A stretch of 64,000 nucleotides of DNA from Oceanospirillales bacterium. Its GTDB lineage: Bacteria > Pseudomonadota > Gammaproteobacteria > Pseudomonadales > Balneatricaceae. The DNA is taken from NCBI GenBank assembly GCA_018223185.1, contig JAAEYW010000001.1, positions 248,001 to 312,000 of the forward strand. The letters are read 5' to 3'. Below are positions 8,792-32,376 of the stretch, piece by piece. How positions within the stretch are numbered: the first letter of the stretch is position 1; every line of letters starts with the position of its first letter. Under the pieces are notes generated by a model. The model saw nothing but the letters and a program-made list of their open reading frames with translations, had not been told where the DNA came from and made no database searches. A program made the position numbers and the translations under genes.

Positions 8792-8814
8792 CCGTTCACA
8801 GGAAGGAGAGGTTT

Positions 8815-9702: not shown

Positions 9703-9718
9703 CCGGACATCTAAAGCT

Positions 9719-10663: not shown

Positions 10664-10731
10664 TGTCAGTTCCTTTACTCGTTCGGTTGTCGGTGACAGC
10701 CCTGTTAATCAGTGATCAGTTGTTGTGCTTT

Positions 10732-10759
10732 CAAAACCTGCTTTCAAAACCAGGTTTTG
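10732..10759 (-). other. Hairpin in the lipA-thrB gap
   Basis: Arms CAAAACCTG (10732-10740) and CAGGTTTTG (10751-10759) pair perfectly with a 10-nt loop. An overlapping alternative hairpin, CAAAACC/GGTTTTG (10745-10759), competes with it. There is no T run. Several CTTTTTTA-like tracts follow at 10785-10820. It may separate lipA and thrB expression. Confidence 0.4.
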
Positions 10760-10820
10760 ACAGCAGATTTTATGGCTGGTTTAAAAGCTTTTTTAAGCGC
10801 TTTTTTATTTCAGAGCTTTT

Positions 10821-11759: not shown

Positions 11760-11888
11760 CAGGGAGGCCTCCGCTGCGTCTAAATCTTTACTGTTTTCGG
11801 TTTAAGCCTGTTACGGAACACCTGCTTGTTATGCTCAGCAGGTGAATCCGTTATTGAGGCTGATTGAGTCTGTTTTACGGGCTTCAGA

Positions 11889-13004
11889 TCAGCCGCGATA
11901 ATAACGTTGTTCGATAAAGGGGGCTTTAGATACCACCATCGGTAACTGCTTACCGCGAACAAGAGCATATATTTCTGTTTCCAGTGCTGCATACTCAGAA
12001 GCGACATATCCCATCGCGATTGGTACGCCAACCGTCGGTCCAAAGCTGCCACTGGTCACTTCACCAATTTTTACGCCATCGGCGTTGACCAGCTCTGCGC
12101 CTTCGCGAATAGGGGCTTTGCCCTGAGCGATCAGTCCCACCCGTTTACGGGTGAAATTTTTGTTGGCGATCTGATCAAAAATCTTTTCAGCGCCAGGGAA
12201 GCCGCCTGCACGTTCGCCATCGGCACGACGACATTTACTGATTGCCCAGATCAGACTGCCCTCTATCGGGGTAGTGTCCTGATTAAGGTCGTGACCATAG
12301 AGACACAAGCCGGATTCCAGACGCAAAGAGTCGCGGGCGCCCAGACCGATACATTCAACTTCCGGCTGTGCAATAAACAGACGGCAGAGTCGTTCAGCTT
12401 CATCAGCAGGGATTGAGATTTCATAGCCATCTTCGCCGGTATAGCCTGAGCGGCTAACGAAGCATTCAACACCATCAATGGTGAGATGGCGGGAATCCAT
12501 AAAGACCATGTTGCTGGCTTCCGGGCAGATGCGTGAAAGCGCCTGAGCGGCTTCAGGACCCTGCAGGGCAACCAGAGCACGATCATCCAATACTTCCAGC
12601 TCTACGCCTTCACCAAGGTTCGCCTGCATATGGGCAATGTCCTGTGCTTTGCAGGCCGCGTTTACCACAACGTACAGATGATCTCCGTAGTTGGTGACCA
12701 TGAGGTCATCCATGATGCCGCCATTTTCGTTAGTGAAGAGGGCATAGCGCTGTTTGCCAACGGGCAGATCGATGATATCGACGGGGACCAGCTTCTCAAG
12801 TTCCGCGGCGGCATGCTCACCGGTCAGCTTTACCTGTCCCATATGAGACACATCAAACAAACCTGCGTGTTCGCGGGTGTGGATGTGTTCTTTTTTAACT
12901 CCCATCGGGTACTGAACCGGCATTTCAAAGCCTGCAAAGGGTACCATTTTGCCACCCAGCTCCAGATGCAGATTATACAGAGGTGTTTTGTTCAGTTCAG
13001 ACAT
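11889..13004 (-). CDS. gcvT: Glycine cleavage system T protein (aminomethyltransferase)
   Basis: I choose ATG 13004 (MSELNKTPLYNLH) because GGAGAC lies 7 bases ahead; an in-frame ATG 12 bases upstream sits in front of that site. The product has 371 residues. MGQVKLTG, SRSGYTGEDGYEI and GLGARDSLRLESGLCLYGHD are the folate and substrate motifs of GcvT. It transfers the methylene carbon of glycine from H protein to tetrahydrofolate and releases ammonia. It is transcribed away from sdaA-glyA-gcvH-gcvP, and an operator-like repeat is shared by both units (13101-13122). Confidence 0.95.
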   Translation of the reverse strand: MSELNKTPLYNLHLELGGKMVPFAGFEMPVQYPMGVKKEHIHTREHAGLFDVSHMGQVKLTGEHAAAELEKLVPVDIIDLPVGKQRYALFTNENGGIMDDLMVTNYGDHLYVVVNAACKAQDIAHMQANLGEGVELEVLDDRALVALQGPEAAQALSRICPEASNMVFMDSRHLTIDGVECFVSRSGYTGEDGYEISIPADEAERLCRLFIAQPEVECIGLGARDSLRLESGLCLYGHDLNQDTTPIEGSLIWAISKCRRADGERAGGFPGAEKIFDQIANKNFTRKRVGLIAQGKAPIREGAELVNADGVKIGEVTSGSFGPTVGVPIAMGYVASEYAALETEIYALVRGKQLPMVVSKAPFIEQRYYRG

Positions 13005-13100
13005 GGAAGTCTCCATAATTTATGTTCAGGTTACGTCAGTACTGTTGATCAGAAATTCTTAGTTTAGTCTGAAAAACAGGTGATAAATGTGTGTATCAAG

Positions 13101-13122
13101 GGAAAAGTTTCCAATAGGAAAC
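13101..13122. promoter_or_regulatory. Candidate operator upstream of gcvT
   Basis: GGAAAAGTTTCC, then AATA, then GGAAAC: the core GTTTCC (13107-13112) and GGAAAC (13117-13122) form a perfect inverted repeat. The same GGAAAAGTTTCC block with a GAAAC partner occurs upstream of sdaA at 14264-14289. This suggests one regulator, most simply the XRE-cupin protein encoded between them. Confidence 0.55.
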
Positions 13123-17784: not shown

Positions 17785-20694
17785 ATGGCTACTGATATAT
17801 CTACTCCTGTTGCTTCCCTGAGCACGCTTCAGCAGACTAAAGAGTTTACCCGGCGACATATTGGCCCGGACGCCAATCAGACTGCAGCGATGCTGGCTGA
17901 ACTGGGCCTGGGTTCTATTGAGGAACTGATGGTTCAGACCGTGCCGGATTCCATCCGTCTGGATGATGCTCTGGCGATGGACGATGCGCTGTCTGAAGCC
18001 GATGCGCTGGCAATGCTGCGCGGTCTCGCTGATCAGAATAAGGTGAACCGGTCTTATATCGGTATGGGCTATCACAATACCCTGGTACCCAATGTTATTT
18101 TGCGTAACGTCATGGAAAATCCAGGCTGGTATACCGCGTATACGCCATATCAGCCGGAGATCTCTCAGGGGCGTCTGGAATCATTGCTGAACTATCAGCA
18201 GGTGGTGATGGATCTGACTGGTATGGATCTGGCCAATGCTTCATTGCTGGATGAAGCCACAGCTGCGGCTGAAGCGATGACCCTGTGTAAGCGTTCTAAT
18301 CGTAAGAAAAGCGACACTTTTTTTGTTGCGGATGATGTTCATCCCCAGACTATCGACGTAATCAGAACCCGCGCAGAATATTTTGGTTTTGAAATTGTTG
18401 TTGGCAACCCGCTGACTGATCTGGATGAGTGTGATGCCTTTGGTGTTCAGCTGCAATATCCTGGCAGCTACGGTGATATTACCGATATCAAAACACTGAT
18501 CGAAAAAGCGAAAGGGCAGCAGGCGATGGTCTCTGTTGCTGCTGATCCCCTGGCGCTGGTGTTGCTGAAATCCCCGGGTGAACTGGGTGCTGATGTGGTG
18601 TTGGGATCGTCCCAGCGTTTTGGTGTGCCAATGGGCTTTGGCGGCCCGCACGCGGCGTTTTTTGCTGCCAGTGAAAAACTGAAACGCTCGGTTCCCGGCC
18701 GGATTATAGGTGTCTCTATCGATGCCAACGGTAACCAGGCGCTGCGGATGGCGATGCAGACCCGTGAACAGCATATCCGTCGTGAGAAAGCGACCTCTAA
18801 CATCTGTACCGCTCAGGCCCTGCTGGCAAATATGGCTTCGTTCTTCTGTGTTTATCACGGTCCTGAAGGCCTTAAAACCATTGCTGAGCGGGTTCATCGT
18901 CTGACTGCGATTCTGGCTAATGGTCTGAAATCGAAAGGCGTTACGGTTAACGACAGTTATTTTGATACCCTGACGCTGACCTTGCCGGAAACCGCTGCAG
19001 AGGTATATCAGCGCGCGCTGGATGCCGGTTGTAACCTGCGCCAGACCGCTGCAGATAAGCTGGGTATATCGCTGGATGAAACCACCCGTCCATCTGATGT
19101 TGCCGATCTGTTTGATATTGTTCTGGGTGAGGGGCATGGTCTGTCGGTTGCTGACCTGGACGCAGAGATCGTCGCGGGCGCTGCAACGGGTATTACCGCT
19201 GAGATGCGTCGTGACGACGCTATTCTGAGCCACCCGACATTCAACAGCTATCACAGCGAAACCGATATGCTGCGTTACATGAAAAAGCTGGAGAACAAGG
19301 ACTACTCGCTGGTACATGGCATGATTCCGCTAGGGTCCTGCACCATGAAGCTGAATGCGACCTCCGAGATGATTCCGGTCACCTGGCCTGAGTTTTCCAG
19401 TATTCACCCCTTCGCACCGGCAGATCAGGTGCAGGGCTATCATACGATGCTTCACCAGCTGGAGCAGCAACTGGTGGAAATTACCGGTTATGATAAGGTC
19501 TCGCTGCAGCCAAACTCGGGTGCCTCCGGGGAATATGCCGGTTTGCTGGCAATCCGTAAGTATCAGGAGTCTGTCGGTGAAGGACATCGTAATGTCTGTC
19601 TGATCCCATCTTCTGCGCACGGTACTAATCCAGCTTCGGCTGCGATGATGGATATGAAGATTATCGTCACCCGCTGTGATGAAAAGGGTAACGTCGATGT
19701 TGCCGATCTGCGTGCACAGGCCGAGCTGCATAAGGATAATCTGTCCTGTCTGATGATCACCTATCCGTCCACCCATGGGGTGTATGAAGAGGATATCGTT
19801 GACATCTGTAACATCATCCACAAAAACGGTGGGCAGGTGTATATGGATGGTGCCAACATGAATGCTCAGGTCGGGATCTCAAAACCGGGTCTGATCGGGT
19901 CTGATGTGTCTCACCTGAACCTGCACAAAACGTTTGCTATTCCTCATGGCGGCGGTGGCCCGGGCATGGGACCTATCGGTGTTAAGAGCCATCTGGCGCC
20001 GTTCCTTGCCAGTCATAAAGTCTCTCCGGTCGAGGGTGTTAACCCTGATAACGGAGCGGTTGCTGCAACCCCTTATGGTTCGGCCTCTATCCTGCCGATC
20101 ACCTGGATGTACAACCTGATGCTGGGTAAGTCAGGTCTTAAACGTTCAACTCAGATAGCGATTCTGAATGCTAACTATATGGCGGAGAAACTGTCAGGGC
20201 ATTATCCGATTCTCTATCGGGGCCGTAACAACAAAGTAGCCCATGAGTGTATCGTAGATATCCGTCCGCTTAAGGAGGCCTCCGGTGTGACTGAGGAGGA
20301 TATAGCCAAGCGACTGATGGATTACGGTTTCCATGCGCCGACTATGTCGTTTCCGGTCGCCGGTACGCTGATGATCGAGCCGACTGAGTCGGAGTCCAGA
20401 GTTGAGATCGATCGTTTTATTGATGCGATGGTGCAGATTAAGGGAGAGATCGATAAGGTGCAGAGTGGTATCTGGCCTGCCGACAATAACCCTCTATGTA
20501 AGGCTCCACATACTCAGGCGGATATTATGGCTGAAGAGTGGGATCGTCCTTATTCGAGAGAAGAGGCTGTCTTTCCGAGCCAGGCAACCCGGGACAATAA
20601 GTTCTGGCCAACCTCAAACCGTATCGATAACGTCTATGGTGACCGGAACTTTATCTGTTCCTGTCCTGCTATCGAAACCTACATGGAAGACTGA
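17785..20694 (+). CDS. gcvP: Glycine dehydrogenase (decarboxylating), P protein
   Basis: The 969-residue single-chain P protein decarboxylates glycine and loads the aminomethyl group on lipoyl-GcvH. [17 protein letters not shown] is the typical N-terminus. The PLP lysine is K715 in [20 protein letters not shown]. The length matches the long homodimeric form (E. coli 957). It is the last gene of the unit and a strong terminator follows. Confidence 0.97.
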
Positions 20695-20711
20695 AATTAT
20701 TGTCTATCAAT

Positions 20712-20766
20712 AATTAAGATTGTGACTAGCTGAATTAAGATTGTGACTGTAATTAAGTTTGTGACT
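20712..20766. repeat. Three tandem copies of a 16-bp repeat
   Basis: AATTAAGATTGTGACT occurs at 20712-20727 and 20733-20748, and with one change at 20751-20766. Spacing is 21 and 18 bp. Multiple short end repeats of this sort are typical of some transposon ends, such as IS21-type elements, but no transposase is adjacent. Confidence 0.7.
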
Positions 20767-20780
20767 TGATCATACGAAAA

Positions 20781-20803
20781 ACGGGCCTAGTGCCCGTTTT
20801 TTT
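20781..20803 (+). terminator. Terminator after gcvP
   Basis: ACGGGC (20781-20786) pairs with GCCCGT (20792-20797), followed by seven T residues. Confidence 0.85.
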
Positions 20804-21576
20804 GTGAATTCGATTACAGATATCTGCCATGATAATTATCTACACAGAGCAAACGGAGGAACCGGGCTCCCCATAGCCAAAAGCGGATATAAGGAAACGC
20901 CACTCTGATTACGAGGATGCGTTTTTCGTAAGGCTGCAAGCGTTTTACTCCAGCTGATATTCTCTTTCAATAAACAGATGCTGCAAAAGAGACCGGAGTG
21001 AGTTGCGAAATACTTTGTACATCCGGCTATCAGCTACACATTTTGAATGTATTTGTCCGCCGATTTAATAGCATTGCACCTGCCAATCCTCAGTTCAAAT
21101 AGCGGACGCTGAATGTTTACCTATCCGAGCTTCAGCTTGCCTCTCCAGTTGATAGAAAGCGACCACTTGAAGTACCGATTATCTATAACTTTGCCACTAA
21201 TCGCCCCCTGAAGCACGATCATTCCGTATCGGTTTCAAGGGGCTTAGCTGTTTTTCCTACCTTATAAATTACAACTCCATCATGATGACTAATCTTGTGA
21301 TTATTAATGCAGAAAAACTGATATATATCCTGATCTAAGTAAATGACTAAGCGTAAATTTGGATGTTGAACAAAATTATCAACTATATTTTAAATACTGG
21401 ATAGAATTTGAGTCCTCGGTAATTTTCAAGCCAATCTCAATTCCGGCACTGTGCCTGCTGCCTAAGTTAAGAGCACTATAGAGGGCCGTAATTTAATGGT
21501 TTTGAATGCGATTTAGCCTGGAATGATGGTGGTGGCAGAACTATTCATGACGAGCTTTAAATTAGGTCGAACTATC

Positions 21577-22479
21577 ATGAAGAAAATATTCGGGCTTGTT
21601 TCCATGAGTATTATGTCAACGTCTCTACTACTCACCGGGTGTGGTGGAGGTGAGGTTGTTGTTTCATCCATACCTTTCACATCATTTTCAGAAATTACTC
21701 CGCCAGAAGCAGTTACGGCATCGGGCCTCTCCTCTGAGGCTGAATATACTGCACCCGCACCTGCATTTGCTGTAACAACAGTTGCTGATCTGGGTGTGAG
21801 CCAGACATCCTCAGCTACTCTTACGTATGGCTCCAGTGGAACCTTGGATAAGGTGGCTATCAACACGCCTAATTCAACGATTACCTGGAGCACCGCTACT
21901 GGCGATTCTATCGACACCTCCTCCGGTGTAGTCATAGCTGTTCAAAATCCGACGGGAGCTAATGTCGGTATTTTCATGGATGCTATTGGCGTTGGTTGGA
22001 ACTATCAGACGTTTGGCAGCTGGGCGACGGGGCTTGGAACAGGTTCTGGTAATGTTGGCGCTATCAGTATAGGGGCCCCAACGACAGCAAGCACAATCCC
22101 CGTAACTGGTATTGCGGTCTTTACAGGCTTGGCCGCAGGAGCTTATTTTGATTCTGTTGGTGATGGCTACTTTGCAACAGGAGAGCTGACGGTAGGGGCT
22201 GATTTTTCTAACCGTAGTTTATCCTTTACTACCAGTAATACGGAAAAGGTCAATCTCAATACTGCACTCTCATCGACTGCCAGCAACCTGAATATGATAG
22301 GAACGCTGACATACAGCCCCGGTGTAAATTCGTTTTCAGGTACAGTAAATGCTACCGGCCTTACTGGCACAGCTGAAGGCCTTTTCTATGGACCTGTTGC
22401 GCAAGAGCTGGGGGGAGTGTTCAACCTGACAGGCTCCGGTGTAGAGACATATTCCGGTGCATTTGGAGCAAAACAGTAA
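21577..22479 (+). CDS. TbpB-like (Slam-dependent) surface lipoprotein
   Basis: I start at ATG 21577, giving 300 residues. The N-terminus MKKIFGLVSMSIMSTSLLLTGC is a lipoprotein signal with lipobox LTGC (C22 lipidated). The C-terminus (GLFYGPVAQELGGVFNLTGS, then a YSGAFGAK tail) is the hallmark of the transferrin-binding-protein-B beta-barrel domain. The next gene, 6 bp on, is Slam, the transporter that moves such cargo to the cell surface. The ligand (transferrin, heme, other) cannot be told from sequence, and no TonB-dependent receptor is nearby. Confidence 0.85.
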   Translation: MKKIFGLVSMSIMSTSLLLTGCGGGEVVVSSIPFTSFSEITPPEAVTASGLSSEAEYTAPAPAFAVTTVADLGVSQTSSATLTYGSSGTLDKVAINTPNSTITWSTATGDSIDTSSGVVIAVQNPTGANVGIFMDAIGVGWNYQTFGSWATGLGTGSGNVGAISIGAPTTASTIPVTGIAVFTGLAAGAYFDSVGDGYFATGELTVGADFSNRSLSFTTSNTEKVNLNTALSSTASNLNMIGTLTYSPGVNSFSGTVNATGLTGTAEGLFYGPVAQELGGVFNLTGSGVETYSGAFGAKQ

Positions 22480-22485
22480 AGCCAC

Positions 22486-23715
22486 ATGAGTCGAAAACTT
22501 AGCATTTGTTCAGCACTCTCCGTGTGTTTCGCAGTGGGAAGTTCTTTACCTGCTTTGGCGGATTCCGAATCGTCTCAACTTTTCATTAACAACCAAAAAA
22601 TTATCGCTCAAGATTCATTGCAGGCTCAATTTATATTGGGTGGTATTGCGCTCAATAATAGGGATTATGAAGCGGCGGTTGCAATTTTCGGTGATCTGCT
22701 GCGTAAAACAAACAGCCCTCGAGTGAAGTTGGAATTAGCTAGGGCCCTTTTTCTGGCTCGCCGTTTCAAAGAAGCCCAACAAGTATTCCAGGAGGTGCTT
22801 TCAGAGAGGAACGTGCCTTGGGCTGTACAGCAGAATGTCAGACTTTACCTTGATGAGATCGATGGCACCTTAGGTTTTGTTAAGTTTGGACTGTCATTTG
22901 TCAGCGACTCGAATCCACGCAATTTCACTTCCAGCAAAGAGGTAATAATCACGGGTCAAATATTAAACGTGGTCCCCCCGGAAGATAACCGTGAAGTAAG
23001 AGGGCTCCGCTATAAAATGACCACTGGTAAACCCTTCTCTGATGATGGCAGGATGTTAGGGTTCTTTAATCTCTCGTTTACTGATTTTGAGCAAAGTCAG
23101 TTTGATCGGTGGACTGGTGATACTGGCTTTATTTACGCATTCGAGTCATTGCCGCAACTGAAAAGCCGCACAGGTATCGAGTATTCCGAACAGGGCGGCA
23201 CCAAACAGTATGACTTTCCATATACCAGTTTGCTGTACACCCCAGATCCGGTACAGCAATTCAGGCTGAATCATGAGTTCAAAATAGGAAGGTTGCATGT
23301 ACCAACCGCCCCTCACCTTGATGCCAATAACTACACACTATCAACCAATTTCACCAGGCCGCTTGAGAGTGGAGTATTAGTTAAAGGTTATCTCAGCATT
23401 GAAAAATCCAGCACTAAGGAGGATCCACACTCCTATCATGGCGGATCAATTGGATTAGGGGTCGACCTTCCACTAAGTTCGTTTGGCTTTGAGCTCTCTG
23501 GATCAGTAGGTAAGCGCTTATTTGGGGGGATAGATCCTTTTTTTGGTGGCAAGCGAGATGATACGACTAAGAAATACGGTTTGATAGTAAGTAACAAAAA
23601 TATCCAGTTCTTTAGCTTCATGCCTAAAGTAGGTGTTATATACGAGCAGAATGACTCTTCTTTAGATTTCTTTAGTTACGATAAAATCAGCTTTGTTTTC
23701 AGTCTTGAGGAGTGA
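22486..23715 (+). CDS. Slam, surface lipoprotein assembly modifier (type XI secretion outer-membrane protein)
   Basis: The protein has 409 residues. A signal peptide ends near ALA-D (residue 25). Residues 40-125 form TPR-like helices (ALNNRDYEAAVAIFGDLL and VKLELARALFLARRFKEAQQVFQEVL). From about 130 onward there is a DUF560-type beta-barrel with alternating aromatic strands, ending YDKISFVFSLEE. Slam proteins translocate TbpB-like cargo across the outer membrane. It is probably translationally coupled to the cargo gene because there is no ribosome-binding site in the 6-bp gap. Confidence 0.87.
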   Translation: MSRKLSICSALSVCFAVGSSLPALADSESSQLFINNQKIIAQDSLQAQFILGGIALNNRDYEAAVAIFGDLLRKTNSPRVKLELARALFLARRFKEAQQVFQEVLSERNVPWAVQQNVRLYLDEIDGTLGFVKFGLSFVSDSNPRNFTSSKEVIITGQILNVVPPEDNREVRGLRYKMTTGKPFSDDGRMLGFFNLSFTDFEQSQFDRWTGDTGFIYAFESLPQLKSRTGIEYSEQGGTKQYDFPYTSLLYTPDPVQQFRLNHEFKIGRLHVPTAPHLDANNYTLSTNFTRPLESGVLVKGYLSIEKSSTKEDPHSYHGGSIGLGVDLPLSSFGFELSGSVGKRLFGGIDPFFGGKRDDTTKKYGLIVSNKNIQFFSFMPKVGVIYEQNDSSLDFFSYDKISFVFSLEE

Positions 23716-23796
23716 TATGTCAGCGAAAGCCCTATTTATTTATTGAACAGAATTAGGCGAACGTCCTGGCTGCTGCTTCGTTTTCACACGGCCTGT

Positions 23797-23813
23797 GCCA
23801 AAAGCGGACATTC
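23797..23813. repeat. Copy of a recurrent GCCAAAAGCGGACATT motif
   Basis: This is the best-preserved copy of a short sequence also seen, decayed or inverted, at 20876-20890, 57187-57200 and 57287-57300. All copies lie in gene-free accessory DNA. Confidence 0.45.
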
Positions 23814-24005
23814 AAAAACGGCCATACCGCTATTAACAACCTATTTGAATTTCACATCTGGCAACTGCTAGCAAAGCGAGCCCTGGCTGCAAAGCGGCGA
23901 TCCGGCTATTGGCTGGTATTGGGTCGCATTCTCTGGACTATAATTGGCATATTAACGACTATTAAATTCGTCAACAGCAGGATCATCAGCCTGGAGGCTC
24001 GCGTA

Positions 24006-25940
24006 ATGCAATATCATCTGAATGGGTTCAAGCCCGGCAATTACGAGGTTCCCGATGAGGCTAGAGAGCCTTATCCCGATCCACCGATTGTGGATCTGCC
24101 TAATGAAGTCGATGTTCTGATCATCGGCACCGGTCCTGCGGGTTTGACTATGGCGCGGCAGTTGTCTGAGTTCACCGATATTAAAACATGTATTGTTGAC
24201 ATGGCACCCGGCCCCTTGCTGTTTGGGCGTGCGGACGGTATCTCCTGTCGCACCATAGAGATCATGGAGGCTTTTAACAGTAGCGAGATGGTGGTGAAAG
24301 AGGCCTACCAGCTGAAACAAAACACATTCTGGGAGCCAGACGAGGACAACCCCGAGAACATCAGGCTCACGCACAAGATCGCCGATGCCCGTGCCGGGCT
24401 TTCTGAGTTTACACACGGCATTGTTAACCAAGCGCGCCTGCATGAGCTGCTGGTTGATGGTATGGAAAGGTCGGTCACCCACCTTAGCCCTCATTATAGC
24501 CGTGAATTGGTTGAGATGAATATTGACGATAACCTCACCCAGAATCTTGATGCCTATCCCATAACGGCAACTTTCAAGAGAACCGACGATGCGGGAGCAG
24601 GAAAGACTGAAACGGTTAGAGCGCGTTATGTCGTGGGCTGCGATGGTGCCAGAAGCAAGGTTCGAAAGAGCATGAACATCCCTCTACAAGGCGATTCTGC
24701 CAACAAAGCGTGGGGCGTCATGGATATTCTGCTGATTACGGATTTCCCGGACATCCGTGTTAAGAGCTTTATCCAGTCCAAAGACCACGGCGCTGTCATG
24801 ACCATCCCTCGCGAGGGTGGCTACCTGTGTCGGTTCTATGTAGAGCTGGATCTGCTCGACAAAGACAAGCGCGCAGCGGATGTCAGAATGAACGAGCACG
24901 ATATCATCGCTAAAGCCCAGAAGATTTTTCATCCTTACACATTGGATGTGAAAGAAGTGGCCTGGTGGTCAATCTATGAGGTGGGCCAGCGCATTGCAGA
25001 ACGTTTTGATAACCGACCAGCGGGCAGCTCTGAAGATATCATACCCCGTGCATTTGTTGCCGGTGATGCCTGTCACACGCACAGCCCTAAAGGCGGCTGG
25101 GGCTTGAACACCTCATTGCCTGACACCTTTAATCTGGGCTGGAAGCTTGCTGCTGTTCTCCAGGGCAGAAGCGATCCCAGGTTGCTGAGCACCTACTGTA
25201 CGGAACGACGCAAAGTGGCACAGCAGTTGATTGAAGCCGACCGTGAGCTGTCCAGGCTGGTCGCCACCCGACCAACCGCAGGCGATGACTCCGAACAGGT
25301 AAAAGTCGACACGGCCAGGATCGAATCCTTTATGAAGCGACAAAGCGGTTTTGTCTCCGGGACATCGATCGAATATTACCCGTCGTATATCTGTACAGGT
25401 CAGGAAAACCAACATCTGGCCACTGGCTTTAACATTGGGCAACGCTTCCATTCGGCTGAAGCTACTCGCGTGGCTGATGGCAGAAGCCAACACCTGGGAC
25501 ATCTGGTAAAAGCTGATGGTCGCTGGCGTATTTTCCTCTTTGGCGACACACAAACACCCACTGATCCCTCTTCAGCAGCGTATCAATTCATCGATTTTCT
25601 GGCCAGCGACGCGTCCTCACCGGTGCAGAAATACACACCGAAGGGCTCAGACATTGACTCGGTCTTTGACACCTATGCTGTATTCCAGCAACAGGACTTG
25701 TCGATGCACGATCTGCATGATTACTTGTGGCCGGCAAAAGGAAAGTACGGTCTGCGGGACTATGAAAAGGTATTCCATGCTGAAGAGAGCAATGACATCT
25801 ATGACCTGCGTGGAATTGACCGTTCCGCAGGCTGTGTAGTGATAGTAAGACCTGACCAGCATATCGCCACTATCCTGCCTGTTACTGCACACGAGGAGCT
25901 TACAAAGTTCTTTGATGTCTTTATGATTAAACAGAGGTAA
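24006..25940 (+). CDS. FAD aromatic hydroxylase, 3-hydroxybenzoate 4-monooxygenase-like
   Basis: ATG 24006 follows GGAGG by 8 bases and gives 644 residues. GTGPAGL (residues 41-47), VVGCDGARSKVRKS (DG motif) and AFVAGDACHTHSPKGG (GD motif) define a class A flavoprotein monooxygenase. The C-terminal thioredoxin-like phenol-hydroxylase dimerisation domain is present. Overall it resembles MobA of Comamonas (3-hydroxybenzoate to protocatechuate) throughout. The flavin loop reads GGWGLNTSLPD where relatives have AGQGMNVSMQD. No ring-cleavage genes are nearby. Confidence 0.82.
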   Translation: MQYHLNGFKPGNYEVPDEAREPYPDPPIVDLPNEVDVLIIGTGPAGLTMARQLSEFTDIKTCIVDMAPGPLLFGRADGISCRTIEIMEAFNSSEMVVKEAYQLKQNTFWEPDEDNPENIRLTHKIADARAGLSEFTHGIVNQARLHELLVDGMERSVTHLSPHYSRELVEMNIDDNLTQNLDAYPITATFKRTDDAGAGKTETVRARYVVGCDGARSKVRKSMNIPLQGDSANKAWGVMDILLITDFPDIRVKSFIQSKDHGAVMTIPREGGYLCRFYVELDLLDKDKRAADVRMNEHDIIAKAQKIFHPYTLDVKEVAWWSIYEVGQRIAERFDNRPAGSSEDIIPRAFVAGDACHTHSPKGGWGLNTSLPDTFNLGWKLAAVLQGRSDPRLLSTYCTERRKVAQQLIEADRELSRLVATRPTAGDDSEQVKVDTARIESFMKRQSGFVSGTSIEYYPSYICTGQENQHLATGFNIGQRFHSAEATRVADGRSQHLGHLVKADGRWRIFLFGDTQTPTDPSSAAYQFIDFLASDASSPVQKYTPKGSDIDSVFDTYAVFQQQDLSMHDLHDYLWPAKGKYGLRDYEKVFHAEESNDIYDLRGIDRSAGCVVIVRPDQHIATILPVTAHEELTKFFDVFMIKQR

Positions 25941-26078
25941 TAGCCCTTTTGAGTGACCAAATGCATCTCTAAGCCTGCCGGGCTTTTTAAGCCTTCGCCG
26001 GAGAAAACCAGTATCACGACACCGCGCTTTTATCCTGAAACAGCTTAAATCACCTGCAAACATGATTCGATGTTCTGA

Positions 26079-26402
26079 GCGGGTATCAATCTGAGAAAGC
26101 CTGAGCCCGGCCTGATTCACTACTCAGGTCGAGGTCAGCGGTACCAGAAACTGTTGAAGCAGCGAGGTCCCGTTACGTCAATGAGCCGCAAAGGTAATGG
26201 TTGGGACAACGCGCTGGTAGAATGGTTTTTTAGTCGCTTGAAGCGAGAATGGCTCAGCGATCATCTTTATCGTAAGCGGCAGGAAGCGATTCCGGATGTT
26301 CGGGAACATATAGCGGTTTATGACAGGCTGTATTCAACGCCGGGTTATCGGACACCGATAATCTACCAGAAAATGATTAACTCAGTGTCCCGAAAGGGTT
26401 GA
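26079..26402 (+). pseudogene. IS3-family transposase (OrfB) remnant
   Basis: Only the C-terminal third of an rve-type integrase core is left, following a stop at 26076. The sequence LRKPEPGLIHYSGRG aligns with the LRKPEPGLIHHSDRG motif of OrfB. The catalytic Asp is replaced by Gly, while SMSRKGNGWDNALVEWFF keeps the final Glu. There is no orfA and I see no matching terminal inverted repeats, so it is dead. Confidence 0.82.
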
Positions 26403-26501
26403 CCATAACACAGCTCTCCTGGTGAAAGATGCCTGTGGTGACCAGTGTGGTTGTCTTCTCAAAAGCCACTAGCGAAGAGTTATCTTCCGAACAGGTGCCC
26501 G

Positions 26502-26531
26502 GGCGGATCAGGAAGCTGATCCGCCTTTTTT
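26502..26531 (+). terminator. Orphan intrinsic terminator
   Basis: GGCGGATCAG/CTGATCCGCC is a perfect 10-bp stem with a GAAG loop and at least six T residues. No intact gene ends here on the plus strand; the nearest is the transposase remnant, so the original gene has probably been lost. Confidence 0.85.
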
Positions 26532-26748
26532 ATGGTTCTTCGCGTGTTATGAGGAAGGATATAGAAACATCGATACCTTCATGGTTAAGCCCGGTTGACG
26601 AGCTCTCCAGGCAAGAACCCCTGCAGAGCGATTTTTCATTGGGGATACCCTATCGTTGCATGACGCCGCGCCAAAACCAACTGGCAGAGGTCTGAACGCT
26701 TGACGCTAAAAAGCGTTTTACCACAGTACCCAAAGGGCATGCTAAGTG

Positions 26749-26818
26749 CACAGAGGACACGGAGAAGCCCTATTAATCAGGTTTTCTCTGTGCCTCTGTG
26801 CTCTCCGTGTCCTCTGTG
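26749..26818. repeat. 17-bp perfect inverted repeat element
   Basis: CACAGAGGACACGGAGA (26749-26765) is inverted at 26802-26818 with a 36-bp spacer containing a further TCTCTGTGCCTCTGTG copy. A related single copy occurs at 48391-48410. This looks like a small dispersed palindromic element. Confidence 0.6.
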
Positions 26819-27015
26819 GTGAGTCTGTTTTAGATTCTAAGGGCCCCTCCAATATATAGCTCCACTACTATCTACCACGATGGAATTCTTTCCCGGTAAA
26901 GCGCGATGAACCTTTTTTACAGGCGCCTGCAGGGCGCCAGTCGACCATAATAAAGCGGTAACATCAGTTTAATATCTCTCAGGCATCTTGGTTGATATAA
27001 CCTGTGGAGGCTAAT

Positions 27016-27549
27016 ATGACTGATATCTTTAGTAAGATCGATAAGATCTACAACGAGGCGGGCCATAATCATTATGGCGAAGGGGTCAGCCAGATTGAAC
27101 ATGCGGTGCAATGCGCCAGGCTGGCGGTAGAGGAGGGTGAACGATCTGATATGGTTGTCGCTGCTTTGCTACATGATATCGGGCACCTTATTGGCGAGGT
27201 GAATTCGGATCATGGTAACTTCAGCCACGATCACGCAGGCGCTGAGTTTCTCAGTCGTTATTTCCCGCCGGGTGTGACTGAGCCGGTGCGTCTGCACGTG
27301 AGTGCAAAGCGGTATCTGTGTACCACTGAGGCTGGTTATATCGATAGCCTTTCAGAGGCTTCGCGGTATTCTCTTGAACATCAGGGCGGCCTGATGACAG
27401 AAGATGAGGTCACTGCTTTTCGGGCAGAGCCTTTTTATGAGCAGGCGATACGTTTACGTCGCTGGGATGATGAAGGGAAAGACGAGACGCTTGCATCGAC
27501 ACCGTTTAACAGCTTCAGTCGTTATGTAGAGGATGTGTGTAATGTCTGA
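27016..27549 (+). CDS. phnZ: PhnZ-like HD-domain mixed-valent diiron oxygenase
   Basis: ATG 27016 follows GTGGAGG by 5 bases; the product has 177 residues. Residues 15-60 have HNHYGEGVSQIEHAVQCA and AALLHDIGHL, which carry the Tyr/Glu lid and HD metal ligands of PhnZ. NFSHDHAGAEFL and RLHVSAKRYLC (ligand His and substrate Lys) follow. PhnZ cleaves the C-P bond of hydroxylated aminoethylphosphonates to give glycine and phosphate. Its hydroxylase partner PhnY is absent here, so the substrate may differ. Confidence 0.85.
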   Translation: MTDIFSKIDKIYNEAGHNHYGEGVSQIEHAVQCARLAVEEGERSDMVVAALLHDIGHLIGEVNSDHGNFSHDHAGAEFLSRYFPPGVTEPVRLHVSAKRYLCTTEAGYIDSLSEASRYSLEHQGGLMTEDEVTAFRAEPFYEQAIRLRRWDDEGKDETLASTPFNSFSRYVEDVCNV

Positions 27550-27590
27550 GGTCAGCTGGCGCTGATTGAAGGGCGCCTGCAGATACAAAA

Positions 27591-27614
27591 AAACCGCCAG
27601 TAGGCGGTTTTTTT
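27591..27614 (+). terminator. Terminator after the phnZ-like gene
   Basis: AAACCGCC (27591-27598) pairs with GGCGGTTT (27603-27610), with a T run after it and an A run before it. It could work in both directions. Confidence 0.85.
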
Positions 27615-28042
27615 GTAAGTTTATTACTTCAGCCGAAACACCCTAATCATCAGGCAAAATGGGGGGGAGCTCAACTTTCGGATGGTATCAGCCGAAATAA
27701 TAATTCTAAATATACAAGTTTGATGCCTGAAAGTTATAAGTATATATATATCAATAGCTTATGAGTTTCTTGTGGTTTTTTGGCTAATCATTTTTGAATC
27801 AACCTTCTTAAAACCGTTACCGATCAGATACATAATATTTAGAATAATAACTATTCTTATATAAATCAGATAGTTATCGTGTATCTGATTTGAGTCACTC
27901 CTTTGAAATCAATAGATTATTTGTCTTTTCATATATTGAGTTTCAGTTGTATGCGGTCAGTGAATGCAACGCTAATGACGGGCCTGAGTATCTATTTTCT
28001 TTTCTGTCGAATAGTGCCGGTCAGTGGGAGAGGGGCAGTAAG

Positions 28043-28112
28043 AGAGCACTTAAAACAGAGCACTTAAAACAGAGCACTTAAAACAGAGTACTTTAAATAG
28101 AGCACTGAATAC
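28043..28112. repeat. 14-bp tandem repeat
   Basis: AGAGCACTTAAAAC is repeated three times without change (28043-28084), followed by two degenerate copies (28085-28112). Confidence 0.8.
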
Positions 28113-28165
28113 AGAGTCAGAAAATGAAAGTATAAACCTTGAGAAGGGAAAGGTGGTGTTTAAAC

Positions 28166-28190
28166 AAAAAAAAACAGGCCAGAGGCCTGT
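28166..28190 (-). terminator. Strong terminator for the small minus-strand gene
   Basis: On the minus strand, ACAGGCC/GGCCTGT with a 3-nt loop is followed by nine T residues. Confidence 0.88.
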
Positions 28191-28198
28191 GAAAATAA

Positions 28199-28248
28199 GA
28201 GCGATATAACATTACCGGCCAGTCTTAAGCCGGTAATACGCTCTTTAG
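28199..28248 (-). other. Extended hairpin in the 3' region of the small gene
   Basis: Inner arms ATTACCGGC and GCCGGTAAT pair perfectly. Outer AGAGCG/CGCTCT arms can extend the stem. It lies between the stop codon of the small protein and its terminator, so the transcript has a structured 3' end. Confidence 0.55.
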
Positions 28249-28259
28249 AGAGAATCGTT

Positions 28260-28463
28260 TCAGACAGCGGCAGTATCTTTGTCCATCGCTTGCATGGACA
28301 TTTTGTAGTCTGTGCGGCTGGATAGTGGGCCGAAAGCCGGTACAGTTGATTTAACGCGGCCTTTAATGAATGCAAAAGCACTCAGAATAAGTTCTGCCTG
28401 AACCTGAGAGCGCATGTTTGCTGCTTGCTTATAGATACTGTTACTGGTTTGGGGAATTGCCAT
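28260..28463 (-). CDS. Small protein of unknown function (67 residues)
   Basis: The best start is ATG 28463 with GGTGAG 5 bases ahead; an in-frame ATG at 28475 would add four residues. The sequence MAIPQTSNSIYKQAANMRSQ is followed by QVQAELILSAFAFIKGRV. It has no membrane segment or signal peptide and I do not recognise the family. Support for a real gene comes from the ribosome-binding site, a well-placed strong terminator and an inverted repeat in its upstream region (28481-28538). Confidence 0.6.
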   Translation of the reverse strand: MAIPQTSNSIYKQAANMRSQVQAELILSAFAFIKGRVKSTVPAFGPLSSRTDYKMSMQAMDKDTAAV

Positions 28464-28774
28464 TTTACTCACCATAATTCGAATTCAGTTCAGAGAATAT
28501 ACTCAGTCGATCAGGTTTGATCTGTCAGAACTGAATTCAGGAAACAGAAAGGGATCACCCTTCGGAATATGTGGCGCATTCTAGACTTTAGTATCAGTCG
28601 TGTTAACTGATCAATTTTCAGATAAATGGTGAGTTAAATTCATCATACGGTTAAGTATCTGCTTTATATAAAGAGATCTTTCAGGTTTGAGTTAACAATC
28701 TGTATTTACCGGGCCTTTTGGCCTGAGTATAGTTGATCAGTTTTTTTGAAATGGTCCACCTCAGAGGATTTACC
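28464..28774. promoter_or_regulatory. Divergent intergenic region with an 11-bp inverted repeat
   Basis: GAATTCAGTTC (28481-28491) and GAACTGAATTC (28528-28538) form a perfect inverted repeat with a 36-bp spacer directly upstream of the small gene. It could be an operator or the arms of a 5' leader hairpin. The rest is AT-rich and shows nothing further. Confidence 0.45.
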
Positions 28775-28927
28775 ATGAAAATACTGGCGCTATCGGGAAG
28801 TCCCAGAGCTGAACCCATTAACCGCAGATTGCCTGATATAGCTGTCGCAGGAGCCTGGCAGGCTGCAGACGCTTTGGCTGCTGATCTGTTTGATCTTTTG
28901 CAGAAACAATCTGACGGGTTTAACTGA
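28775..28927 (+). pseudogene. Remnant of an NADPH-dependent FMN reductase (50 residues)
   Basis: ATG 28775 has a GAGG site. The start MKILALSGSPRAEPINRRLPDIAVAG is the flavin-binding N-terminus of FMN reductases, normally about 180 residues long. It runs directly into LAADLFDLLQKQ, which resembles the C-terminal helix of the same family. A large internal deletion is the simplest explanation. Its stop codon overlaps the next start (TGATG), so it may still help translate the methyltransferase. Confidence 0.55.
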
Positions 28928-29544
28928 TGGCGGTTGGTGAGAGTGGTTTTATCGGTTTTTCTCTGGCATCGGCGCGTAATTGCACACCTATCTTTAAGGA
29001 GCTAGCCGTTCTTCTGAGGGGGGATGAGTCTGTTTTGGAGATTGGTAGTGGTAGCGGCCAGCATGCTGTTTATTTCTCGGAACAGCTATCGGGCCTTACC
29101 TGGTTGCCCTCTGAAATTGCGCTGCAGCTAACGGTGTTGCAGGCCAACCTTGATATTCATGGCCGTGCCAACATAAAGGCCCCGCTGTTGTTGGATCTGC
29201 GGGATAAAAACTGGGGGGCTGGATTGCCTGGTGTTGATCTGATATTCAGTGCCAATACACTGCATATTATCAGCTGGGCTGAGGTTGTTTCTCTGTTCTG
29301 TTGCTTGGAAACGGTACTTAAGCCTGGTGGCCGGCTCATTCTGTATGGTCCATTCCGATATGACGATAACTTTACCAGTGATAGCAATGCTGAATTTGAT
29401 GGTTGGCTGAAAGCCCGCGATCCGGACAGCGGTATCCGCGACTTCGAACAGGTTAGTTCACTGGCTTCTGAGGCGGGTTTGATGCTGGAGTGCGATATCA
29501 GTATGCCGGCTAATAATCAGTTGCTGGTCTGGAAGCAGGGATAA
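28927..29544 (+). CDS. DUF938 (METTL26-like) SAM-dependent methyltransferase
   Basis: The 205-residue class I methyltransferase has SAM motif I VLEIGSGSGQHAVYFSEQL near residue 38, an LDLRDKNWG segment and LKPGGRLILYGPF (motif III region). The N-terminal SARNCTPIFKELAVLL fits the DUF938 pattern of S-A-R-N-x-x-P-I. The substrate is unknown for the family. It overlaps the preceding remnant by a base. Confidence 0.85.
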   Translation: MAVGESGFIGFSLASARNCTPIFKELAVLLRGDESVLEIGSGSGQHAVYFSEQLSGLTWLPSEIALQLTVLQANLDIHGRANIKAPLLLDLRDKNWGAGLPGVDLIFSANTLHIISWAEVVSLFCCLETVLKPGGRLILYGPFRYDDNFTSDSNAEFDGWLKARDPDSGIRDFEQVSSLASEAGLMLECDISMPANNQLLVWKQG

Positions 29545-29654
29545 CCGGATACGGTTGTTTCGGTATGTTTTAAGAACGGTATATCTGAGCTGATTGTGTG
29601 TTCTGATGGGGGAATGTAATAGCGGTTGTGCAGAGGTAAAACGTTGGAGGATAA

Positions 29655-29678
29655 GGCTGTAACCCGGAGGTTACAGCC
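29655..29678 (-). terminator. Hairpin after the cold-shock gene
   Basis: GGCTGTAAC/GTTACAGCC is a perfect 9-bp stem with a 6-nt loop about 14 bp beyond the stop codon. There is no T run, so it may act as an mRNA 3' stabiliser. Confidence 0.55.
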
Positions 29679-29691
29679 GGGCGGTTAAACA

Positions 29692-29898
29692 TTACAGGAT
29701 AGTAACGTTCTCTGCCTGTGGACCTTTCTGGCCCTGAGTGACTTCGAAAGAAACTTGCTGTCCTTCGTTCAGAGTCTTAAAACCATCGGAGTTGATAGCA
29801 CGGAAGTGAACGAATACGTCAGGACCGTTATCCTGTTCGATAAAACCATAGCCTTTATCGGCATTGAACCATTTAACGGTACCAGTAGATGTAGACAT
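29692..29898 (-). CDS. Cold-shock domain protein
   Basis: The start is ATG 29898 ([20 protein letters not shown]), giving 68 residues, the CspA size. Both RNA-binding motifs, KGYGFI and DVFVHF, are intact. It is an RNA chaperone that binds single-stranded nucleic acid. The frame extends upstream only into non-conserved sequence. A long AT-rich leader precedes it, as is common for csp genes. Confidence 0.95.
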
Positions 29899-30397
29899 AA
29901 TTGTATTCCCTACAATAGTTTTTTTTTTGAATAATTGCGCTCTGAATATAGTCAGATACACGGGTTAAGCTAAGAATGCAGGAACTACATTTATGACGAA
30001 GGGACACACAGGTTAATCTGATGGACTCTTTGGTGCATAAAAATCGGGCCGTACTTTCAAGCTGATTTAATTCTAAGACATTTGCCAAAATAGTAAAAGA
30101 GTTATTTTTAAGTCGTTTTTTTGTTTTAACTTGTTGTAATTTAAGAGGTTGTTTGTTTTTTGGTGAGTCTGTTAAACGCCGCATAATCGCTCATGATTAT
30201 TTTATCCTGCTTTTTTTACACTGAAGTTAAGGCTGACAAATGCTGTTCAGGGATGTGATAACAGCCTGTATCGGGCCTGTTGAGGATGTTCATATCTGCA
30301 CAGAGGCGTGGTTTGTATTTTAAAGATGAGGGGCTGAAGAGAGCATTCAGGAGTGGGGGACTGCGGTGCTGGCGACACGGTAATCTTCTGATGCAGA
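29899..30397. other. Long csp leader and intergenic DNA
   Basis: About 500 bp lie between the csp start and the hairpin after the DUF2058 gene. The first 250 bp, rich in A/T tracts, are the likely long 5' leader of csp mRNA. I see no gene. Confidence 0.4.
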
Positions 30398-30424
30398 CCC
30401 TTCCTCAGGTTGTCTGAGGAAGGG
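30398..30424 (-). terminator. Hairpin after the DUF2058 gene
   Basis: CCCTTCCTCAG (30398-30408) pairs perfectly with CTGAGGAAGGG (30414-30424) with a 5-nt loop. No T run follows on the minus strand. Confidence 0.6.
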
Positions 30425-30472
30425 GTATGATCGGTTTTATGAAAAAGCGGTTATGCTGAGTGAATCCTGTCA

Positions 30473-31030
30473 TTACCACATAAGGTCATCAGGGATCTGG
30501 AAGTCTGCATAAGGGTCATCCGGGTCGATCTCTTCCACTTTTTGACGGCTGATAATCAGCTCTGGACGACGCTCACTTATCTTTTCAGCAACGCCTGCCG
30601 GAATCAGGGTATAACCGCTCTTGCCTGAGGCGATGGCCAGGTTGCCTTTAGCCAGCTGTTCCTGCAGGTCTTTAGTGACATAGAGTTTCTTGATGGTCGT
30701 TCCATCTGCGAAGTTATACTCAATATCTCCATCAGCGGGCATGTGAACGCTATTCTGCTGCAGCATCTGCAGGCATGATGCATCAATAGAGCGACGGGTG
30801 AGTTCATCTTCCCGCTGGCGATTCAGCTCCCGGTCCCGCTTTAGTTTTTCCTCTTTTGCAGCGGCGATCGACTGTTCCCGCTCCAGCTGCTCCTGATCTT
30901 TAAAGACTTCGCCTTTTTTAACGGCTTTTGCCTGTTTAGTTTTCTTGCGCTTTTCGGCTTTTGCTTTGTTAGCCTGTTGCTTGTTTGCCAGACCCGCTTT
31001 TAGAAGCTGATCCTGTAGAGATCCTGCCAT
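30473..31030 (-). CDS. DUF2058 (YaiL-like) protein
   Basis: The protein has 185 residues. It starts MAGSLQDQLLKAGLANKQQANKAKAEKRKKTKQAKA, the typical basic start of the family, followed by a charged coiled-coil (EQLEREQSIAAAKEEKLKRD). The C-terminal globular part has NFADGTTIKKLYVT and GYTLIPAGVAEKI. The family is widespread in gammaproteobacteria; a nucleoprotein role is suspected but not established. Confidence 0.85.
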   Translation of the reverse strand: MAGSLQDQLLKAGLANKQQANKAKAEKRKKTKQAKAVKKGEVFKDQEQLEREQSIAAAKEEKLKRDRELNRQREDELTRRSIDASCLQMLQQNSVHMPADGDIEYNFADGTTIKKLYVTKDLQEQLAKGNLAIASGKSGYTLIPAGVAEKISERRPELIISRQKVEEIDPDDPYADFQIPDDLMW

Positions 31031-31339
31031 GTTGTTTACCCTGCTTATATCGCATTCAGGGTGTGAACTATATCGGACATCGGGTTTTAGCTCCAGATCA
31101 ACAGTTGATTAGATCGCTCTCGGGGCGTGTTGAATAGATCTTAATTCCTGTTTGAGATGGGACCTGTCTGTTACGAAAAATACAGGTGCTTCTTGAAAAT
31201 TTCCCAGAGAGCGGGCCGGGCTTATTCACACCTTCTATTACCACCTGAGATCATTCATCGGCGTTTTTTTGCTTTAAACTCTCAGCGCACTGTTGTTGAA
31301 TAGTGATACCGACAACCCGAATCTGTGCAGATGATTAAT
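31031..31339. other. Intergenic region, nothing distinct
   Basis: This 309-bp divergent gap lies between the DUF2058 and LOG genes. It must hold both promoters, but I could not assign any box with confidence. Confidence 0.4.
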
Positions 31340-31891
31340 ATGAGAATTGCCGTTTACTGTGGAGCTTCATCAGGGCCTGAAAAGGGACCCTATAAAAGTG
31401 AAGCACGAAATCTGGGACGTCTGATGGCCCGGAAAAATATTCAACTGGTGTATGGTGGTTCAAGTATCGGCCTGATGGGAAGTGTTGCCGATGGTGTGCT
31501 GGAAGGCGGTGGCCATGTGTGTGGTGTGATGCCTCAGGTGCTGGTTGACCGTGAACAGGTTCATGTGGGTCTGAGTGAGCTGCATGTCGTTGAGGATATG
31601 CATCAGCGAAAGGCCGTGATGATGGAACTGGCCGATGCGTTTATTGCGCTGCCGGGTGGCACCGGCACTCTGGAAGAGCTGTTCGAGGTCTGGGCCTGGC
31701 GGCAGATCGGTATTCATCATAAGCCGTTTGGTTTGTTGAACATTCAGAATTACTTCGATAATCTTCTGGCTTTTATTGCCCATGCAGCAGACCAGGAGTT
31801 TATCCGGGATGAGTACCGGGACTTTTTACTGGTTGATAGTCATCCTGAGGGGCTGCTTACCCGGCTGTCTGATAAACTGAATCAGGCCTGA
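31340..31891 (+). CDS. LOG-family Rossmann-fold nucleotide hydrolase
   Basis: I take ATG 31340 (MRIAVYCGASSG), giving 183 residues. In-frame starts at 31331 (ATG) and 31325 (GTG) are also possible because no site decides. VYGGSSIGLMGSVADG and ALPGGTGTLEELFEV (PGGxGTxxE) are the signature of LOG phosphoribohydrolases. These enzymes release free bases from cytokinin or nucleoside monophosphates. The bacterial role is often nucleotide salvage. Confidence 0.88.
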   Translation: MRIAVYCGASSGPEKGPYKSEARNLGRLMARKNIQLVYGGSSIGLMGSVADGVLEGGGHVCGVMPQVLVDREQVHVGLSELHVVEDMHQRKAVMMELADAFIALPGGTGTLEELFEVWAWRQIGIHHKPFGLLNIQNYFDNLLAFIAHAADQEFIRDEYRDFLLVDSHPEGLLTRLSDKLNQA

Positions 31892-31989
31892 CATGTTAGT
31901 CTTCTGTATCGTGCCTGCTTATATCTTGCTTTAATATCGGTTTAATAGCGGCGGACCATTCTGTCTGCCAGTGTAATTTTGGAGTCAGC

Positions 31990-32376
31990 ATGTCAAAAAT
32001 GCCGGAAGGGCGGCCTTCACTCAGGACCATTGCAATGCCGGGAGATGCCAATCCGGATGGTGATATCTTCGGCGGCTGGATTATGGCACAGATGGATCTG
32101 GCCAGTGGCAGCTTCGCTTCACAGGAGACAAAGTGCAGGGTCGTTACCGTTGCGGTTGATGCGATGACTTTTCATAAGCCGGTGTATATCGGTGATGATG
32201 TCAGTTGTTTCTGTAAAATGGTTCGCTACGGCAATACATCACTGGTTGTTCATGTGGAAACCTGGGTGCAACGGCATCATAGTGAGATGATTGAAAAGGT
32301 GACTGAAGGCAATTTCACTTTTGTGGCGATTGGCAGCGATGGTCGTCCCCGGCCGGTAAAAAGCCAGAGCATTTAA
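31990..32376 (+). CDS. yciA: Acyl-CoA thioesterase, YciA type
   Basis: The 128-residue hotdog-fold protein has GDANPDGDIFGGWIMAQMDLASG, with the catalytic Asp region, and FHKPVYIGDDVSCFCKMV. GGAG lies 7 bases before ATG 31990. YciA hydrolyses a wide range of acyl-CoA esters in the cytosol. Confidence 0.9.
   Translation: MSKMPEGRPSLRTIAMPGDANPDGDIFGGWIMAQMDLASGSFASQETKCRVVTVAVDAMTFHKPVYIGDDVSCFCKMVRYGNTSLVVHVETWVQRHHSEMIEKVTEGNFTFVAIGSDGRPRPVKSQSI

Follow-up and report, generated by a model that had tools for sequence, protein, structure and literature searches.

In the window, by which we mean the whole 64,000-nucleotide stretch of DNA analysed, a gene for a putative lipoprotein is followed 6 bp later, on the same + strand, by a gene for a Slam-like outer-membrane protein, with no gene for a TonB-dependent receptor nearby. 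Do the two genes form a type 11 (Slam) secretion system, and what could the cargo do by itself? The reading that we favour, with a probability of about 0.7, is a self-contained type 11 surface-display cassette whose stand-alone lipoprotein serves adhesion, capture or shielding, and not TonB-coupled uptake.

The gene pair and its predicted products

The genes and domains of the pair are as follows:
21577..22479, + strand, cargo lipoprotein gene (300 aa, lipobox LLLTGC)
21640..21642, + strand, codon of Cys22, the Cys of LLLTGC and presumed lipidation site
22096..22476, + strand, C-terminal TbpB_B_D eight-stranded barrel of the cargo (residues 174-300; PF01298, AlphaFold2, Foldseek), presumed Slam-targeting domain
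22486..23715, + strand, Slam-like outer-membrane protein gene (SlipAM/DUF560, 409 aa; PF04575 and AlphaFold2 model)
22591..22872, + strand, TPR region of Slam (residues 36-129, five helices; family models, AlphaFold2), presumed periplasmic
22876..23709, + strand, 14-strand barrel of Slam (residues 131-408; AlphaFold2 model)

The cargo reading frame opens mechanically at 21523, and the lipoprotein start is at 21577. The lipobox was recognised by eye and with a simple pattern, and the residues C22-G23-G24 are invariant across six aligned cargos (alignment A2). The mature cargo (residues 22-300) has no His, a single Cys, presumably the lipidated one, and a pI of 4.1. It scored 39.5 bits against PF01298 (TbpB_B_D, cut-off 26) over residues 174-300, the only match to this family in the genome. 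An AlphaFold2 model built from six cargos (the window and five others) reached a pLDDT of 84.8 and a pTM of 0.82, with residues 1-32 below 50 and the barrel strands spanning residues 179 to 299. The 50 Foldseek matches listed comprised TbpB, LbpB, the C-terminus of NHBA, hemophilin/HphA, fHbp and one unnamed surface lipoprotein, with a best E-value of 1.5e-7 and modest TM-scores over the query (0.35-0.47). The cargo thus combines a signal peptide, here SPII by the lipobox pattern, with the C-terminal eight-stranded barrel (PF01298 and model) that characterize T11SS cargos. It does not fall into narrower families: it scored 42.4 bits against slam_lipo (NF041636, Slam-dependent surface lipoprotein, equivalog; cut-off 80) and 17.9 bits against FHBP_C (gathering score 28.1), which leaves it outside fHbp, and it has a single barrel domain in place of the two-lobe architecture of TbpB/LbpB. 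It is not a hemophilin/HphA either, since the mature protein lacks a His heme ligand and the HphA domains PF22828/PF22829 (HphA_N, HphA_C) gave no match at E up to 1; the control cargo of locus L067 matched them.

The downstream protein scored 42.6 bits against PF04575 (SlipAM, cut-off 22) and 28.2 bits against TPR_19 (cut-off 25), and stayed under the cut-off of the Slam-specific TPR model PF24575 (21.7 against 35.2 bits). Its AlphaFold2 model, built from seven sequences (pLDDT 80.6), has five helices in the TPR region and 14 long strands, as many as Slam is predicted to have (PMC5449769, PMC7857515). The N-terminal TPR plus DUF560/SlipAM barrel of a T11SS is thus present by PF04575, TPR_19 and the model, PF24575 being below cut-off. 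The original prediction, made from the letters alone, had named a lipobox protein with a TbpB-type C-terminal barrel and, 6 bp downstream, a DUF560/TPR outer-membrane protein; both descriptions were borne out by the family scores, and structure prediction of the two proteins, set beforehand as a test, gave a TbpB-type barrel for the one and TPR plus 14 strands for the other.

Could the second protein be an ordinary porin or an exopolysaccharide exporter that happens to lie beside an unrelated lipoprotein? Its Foldseek matches in the PDB were exopolysaccharide exporters with TPR and barrel (BcsC, the best at 2.6e-5, and PelB, with PelBC at rank 15), porins such as the sucrose porin, and other barrels including OmpT, with no Slam among the 50 matches listed. 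SlipAM also matches another barrel of the same genome (G000:C17:35875-36276, locus L002), which we took as an exopolysaccharide barrel. Judging from the models, it takes family scores and linkage, beyond the fold, to tell Slam apart from other TPR barrels. The score of 42.6 bits, the linkage to a cargo relative in 15 of 16 family loci and the co-divergence of the two genes (see below) all argue against this alternative, no polysaccharide gene was noticed beside the pair in the window, and we regard it as very improbable. The L002 barrel itself is a 403-aa frame (22.1 bits with its neighbours in frame), followed by a polysaccharide-export protein, read by eye.

Relatives of the pair and the Slam tree

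We then looked at the distribution of the pair. The family of the relatives is one that we take to be Nitrincolaceae; the tree labels of named records give Oceanospirillaceae. The window comes from an Amphritea genome; the pair is also present in Amphritea pacifica, and one locus (G125) is identical to that of Neptunomonas qingdaonensis. PF04575 matched in 33 of 95 relatives and PF01298 in 13 of 95; both numbers take in the window's genome as well as SlipAM or TbpB_B_D proteins of other types. Searching with the cargo alignment gave matches in 14 of 116 family genomes, 9 of 390 in a draw from the order and 6 of 369 in a draw from the class; the own genome is counted each time, and matches beyond the family are mostly weak or partial. 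A Slam-like neighbour stands beside the cargo in 15 of the 16 family loci, among them one that is divergent and two where the cargo is far larger; only L100, a second cargo in G123, is without an adjoining Slam. This linkage, together with the single PF01298 match in the genome, indicates that the pair is more than a chance association. In one of the family loci, L106, a 1130-aa protein with VWA_4 and a C-terminal TbpB_B_D (9710-13102) lies beside a Slam-like gene and is possibly a very large T11SS cargo.

Outside the family, the pair occurs in a metagenome-assembled genome (MAG) labelled Thiobacillus denitrificans, and cargo relatives were found in 5 of 72,556 plasmid records, two of them from Salipiger, two from Alloyangia and one from Sinorhizobium, all Alphaproteobacteria. 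In all five a TbpB-like protein is annotated and then a Slam or TPR protein, and the domains were verified in four. With Slam as the query no plasmid record was matched at E 1e-5, though these five cargo-bearing records have Slam-like neighbours; viral contigs contained no Slam relative.

In a tree of 36 Slam-like proteins, all 19 from receptor-less lipoprotein pairs (14 of the family, the MAG and four of the five plasmid pairs) were separated from the rest by a branch whose support was 95/93, or 90/87 without the plasmid rows. The other groups were hemophilin Slams (6), barrels linked to FecR/CHASE2 (9) and two large-cargo Slams; L081, a near-copy, was left out. The tree was read without a fixed root, the long branches of L103 and L150 are placed with doubt, and the rows were hand-chosen from fetched loci and not random. 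Distances between cargos and between Slams were correlated across 14 pairs (Mantel r 0.83, none of 10000 permutations as high), a result that linkage alone can yield. Receptor absence is common to the whole Slam branch in this sample, which, as far as sequence comparison goes, points away from TonB-coupled uptake.

The FecR/CHASE2-linked group consists of a second SlipAM-matching barrel (~440 aa, with TPR) at a syntenic locus in L059, L060, L061, L062, L068, L070, L071 (genus relatives), L072 and L073. A FecR-domain protein and a CHASE2 adenylate/guanylate cyclase accompany it in nine of nine loci and a cAMP-phosphodiesterase-like MBL protein in eight; TbpB_B_D was not found there, and the domains were verified in L059 alone.

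Receptors, heme and the charge of the cargo

The original prediction held that known pairs work with a TonB-dependent receptor. This is not general: of 185 Slam-lipoprotein clusters, Hooda 2017 reports a receptor gene in 120, which by subtraction leaves 65 without (PMC5449769), and NHBA and fHbp are described as Slam-dependent lipoproteins acting via heparin and Factor H binding (PMC7857515). A receptor-less pair is thus not anomalous. Receptor-less lipoprotein-Slam loci of roseobacters have moreover been published (PMC12282271), and the window pair is another of a type already in print.

The predicted absence of a TonB receptor nearby was confirmed. BLAST with 11 receptor queries (six from the own genome, five from hemophilin loci) found none among the window ORFs of at least 80 aa, and none of the six PF00593 receptors of the genome is on the window contig. 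The same search found no receptor ORF of at least 80 aa in any of the 16 distinct lipoprotein loci (the window, one locus of 5.6 kb and others of 17-21 kb). As a control, it matched 7 of 7 hemophilin loci, which is partly circular since five of them had supplied queries; independent matches were those of L069 (59.5% identity), L081 (98% to L080) and L063, beside a large-cargo Slam (25%). Near the five plasmid pairs no receptor is annotated within 6 kb, in gene tables that are incomplete. The original proposal, type XI secretion of a TbpB-like cargo with no adjacent receptor, finds support in family and structure models as well as in synteny and phylogeny.

The cargo could nevertheless capture heme, metal, cobalamin or siderophore on behalf of a TonB-coupled importer, with the receptor gene lying away from the pair in the genome; TbpB, LbpB, HpuA and HphA are described as capture halves of this kind (PMC7857515, PMC8560813). 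The rest-of-genome search suggested beforehand did find six PF00593 receptors. By best NCBIfam match, two of them go to B12 models (570 and 441 bits against 600), one to Fiu (325 against 686), one to a copper model (535.5 against 472.45, the only one of the six over its cut-off) and two, fitting no model well, to the TOL_0244 type (134 and 183 against 645). None of the six reached the cut-off of the heme and heme/transferrin/lactoferrin models, but the control receptor of hemophilin locus L067 fell below as well, and the heme-model test is therefore weak. The five hemophilin-locus receptors matched the own six weakly (best E 4.5e-6 over 275 aa), which, like the absence of a linked receptor from the 16 lipoprotein loci and of an HphA domain match from the cargo, speaks against an importer. 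HphA is reported to bind heme through H43 and H106, and hemophilin through one His (PMC8560813). His is absent from the mature window cargo, other mature cargos have 0-2, and no column in the alignment of 14 cargos holds three or more. Tyr-ligated heme or another small ligand may be bound by the cargo. For Fur, we scanned with what we take to be the consensus box: none of the 14 cargo upstream regions contained a Fur-like box (at the lowest rate, 9 of 100 mononucleotide shuffles were as good), whereas 4 of 8 upstream regions in hemophilin loci reached at most 3 of 100 shuffles, all of them preceding receptors (4 of 5), and the three upstream of non-receptor genes had none. With this evidence we consider a TonB-coupled importer unlikely.

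The composition of the mature cargo (18 Asp/Glu against 4 Lys/Arg in 279 residues) suggests yet another role, that of an anionic shield in which an acidic surface protein binds cationic peptides or polycations, as described for the anionic regions of LbpB (PMC11022072). However, five of six hemophilin-type controls have an equally low pI (4.1-4.6), so the charge of the cargo is not specific, and shielding of this kind seems to us decidedly unlikely as the function.

We thus return to the self-contained display cassette. A Sec/SPII signal would direct export of the cargo, Cys22 would receive the lipid, and the lipoprotein would then travel to the outer membrane. There the adjacent TPR/14-strand barrel protein would recognise the TbpB-type barrel at the C-terminus of the cargo, and this Slam would pass the cargo to the outer leaflet. 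Once displayed, the cargo would act by itself: the N-terminal half, which is the more variable one, would contact something extracellular (adhesion, ligand capture or shielding), and the protein would not serve a TonB-coupled importer of heme or transferrin as its capture half.

Apparent movement of the cassette and comparison with known systems

Comparison with relatives delimits two further features:
21173..23716, + strand, cassette of ~400 bp upstream region, cargo and Slam, ending one base past the Slam stop codon
20850..26421, no strand, insertion between gcvP and an HD gene, relative to G009, with the cassette, a FAD monooxygenase and an integrase-core remnant

The 2.5-kb cassette is 80.2% identical over 2552 columns (blastn) to positions 8507-11053 of the 20-kb pair locus L056 of G009, a genome of the same genus, and is the sole blastn match between that locus and window positions 19500-32000. 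At gcvP, similarity to G009 (L141) ends at 20849 and resumes at 26422, and similarity to G016 (L142) ends at 20691 and resumes at 26489. None of the seven genus (Amphritea) relatives examined has the pair behind gcvP; the distance from gcvP to the HD gene is ~150 bp in G016, 290 bp in G008 and 1.15 kb in G009, the other four having a different layout. An integrase-core remnant (rve_3, 82 aa, 26154-26402) lies 2.4 kb downstream of the pair, a 269-aa integrase-core ORF 0.5 kb from the G009 pair, and an annotated IS3 transposase upstream of one Salipiger plasmid pair. Shared flanks are confined to two groups, A. atlantica/A. pacifica/G015 and the Neptunomonas-type L101, L102 and L104. From these alignments, the two genes and their upstream region appear to have been inherited and moved together between genomes. 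Of the island with repeats and a dead IS originally described, the insertion and the rve_3 remnant stand; the 14-bp tandem repeats (28040-28123, five register copies, before an ORF at 28733) lie outside the insertion. A proximity of T11SS to one-carbon genes is reported (PMC12282271), but the position behind gcvP is a poor clue because relatives of the pair occupy other sites.

Several other elements were seen in this region. The insertion also holds a phenol-hydroxylase-like FAD monooxygenase (FAD_binding_3 and Phe_hydrox_dim, 23919-25940). Just behind gcvP, at 20712-20766, there are three copies of AATTAAGWTTGTGACT, a number reached in none of the window shuffles; G009 has one copy there, by eye. 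Between 20690 and 24000, scans gave 6 promoter-like sites against 5.8 in shuffles and 5 terminator-like sites against 3.5 (sd 1.8). In an Rfam scan of 20500-29000 (E up to 0.5) nothing reached its gathering score, the single weaker match being a Phe leader outside the pair (27584-27730, - strand, 32.8 bits against a threshold of 55).

Within the cassette, the cargo varies more in its N-terminal half than in the barrel, with mean column entropies of 1.83 and 1.41 bits, respectively, across 15 cargos. When loci with shared flanks were compared, the cargo was the most divergent gene in three of four pairs. Identities were 58% for the cargo and 91% for Slam in L101/L104 (other ORFs 86-100%, save one 113-aa ORF at 79%), 51% and 68% in L101/L102, where many genes are saturated, and 72% and 84% in L076/L078; in L057/L076 Slam was the most divergent instead (61%, cargo 76%). 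The cargo also had the highest dS in L101/L104 (1.26 against 0.01-0.69) and L076/L078 (1.22 against 0.05-0.81), which would fit allele exchange. We do not claim positive selection on the cargo: dN/dS was 0.15-0.36 in the four pairs, below 1, and the cargo was more divergent than Slam in just 21 of 91 pairs.

More tentatively, and at slightly less than even odds, the pair may belong to a receptor-free T11SS branch, in which a two-gene display cassette with its own upstream region is mobile among Gamma- and Alphaproteobacteria, also on plasmids, and in which the cargo serves changeable recognition at the cell surface and does not act as a nutrient receptor. A single branch sets the receptor-less Slams of our sample apart, so it may be possible to predict the role from the sequence of Slam. 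With its short Slam, one-barrel cargo and no receptor, the compact pair offers a clean system for asking what the cargo barrel alone tells Slam, and is also suited to asking what a cargo does where nutrient import is not the task. Among the papers listed in a literature search, none deals, by its title and abstract opening, with Slam pairs of Amphritea, Neptunomonas or the family to which they belong. A strain related to Amphritea has been described from sea-cucumber larvae (PMC9365125), a hint that the group is not solely free-living.

Among known systems, Neisseria Slam1/Slam2 with TbpB, LbpB, HpuA and fHbp resemble the pair in the TPR and 14-strand DUF560 barrel, in the lipidated cargo with a C-terminal eight-stranded barrel and in genes that are often adjacent (PMC5449769, PMC7857515). 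Neisseria TbpB differs in having two lobes where the window cargo has a single barrel, and the window pair is without a TonB receptor. As to family score, the 42.6 bits of the window Slam compare with 126-192 bits for four hemophilin-type Slams of relatives (G047, G039, G073, G048), a comparison with kin and not with Neisseria. The hemophilin/HphA-HphR-Slam heme loci share with the window cargo a handle plus barrel, a similar size and a Foldseek match; their cargos, however, are secreted, bind heme via His and go with a TonB receptor, whereas the window cargo has a lipobox and neither His nor receptor, and the Slams of the two fall on different sides of the tree. By description, the pair can also be likened to PmSLP-Slam of Pasteurella multocida, a Slam-adjacent surface lipoprotein of unknown ligand with divergent variants (PMC10075479), whose host is an animal pathogen, and to NilB/NilC of Xenorhabdus, a Slam-type protein and surface lipoprotein that provide a precedent for a role in surface interaction (PMC9100927); NilC had no match among the cargo clusters given in PMC12282271. 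We also liken the pair to the 'cluster 3' hybrid T11SS of Roseobacter, by its description (PMC12282271), and to the plasmid pairs of Salipiger, Alloyangia and Sinorhizobium. Unlike the Roseobacter loci, the plasmid pairs have no thyX, glyoxalase or DUF1194 annotation in their 6-kb flanks; like the window pair, they consist of a lipoprotein cargo of ~290 aa followed directly by a Slam of 389-435 aa, with no receptor annotated nearby.
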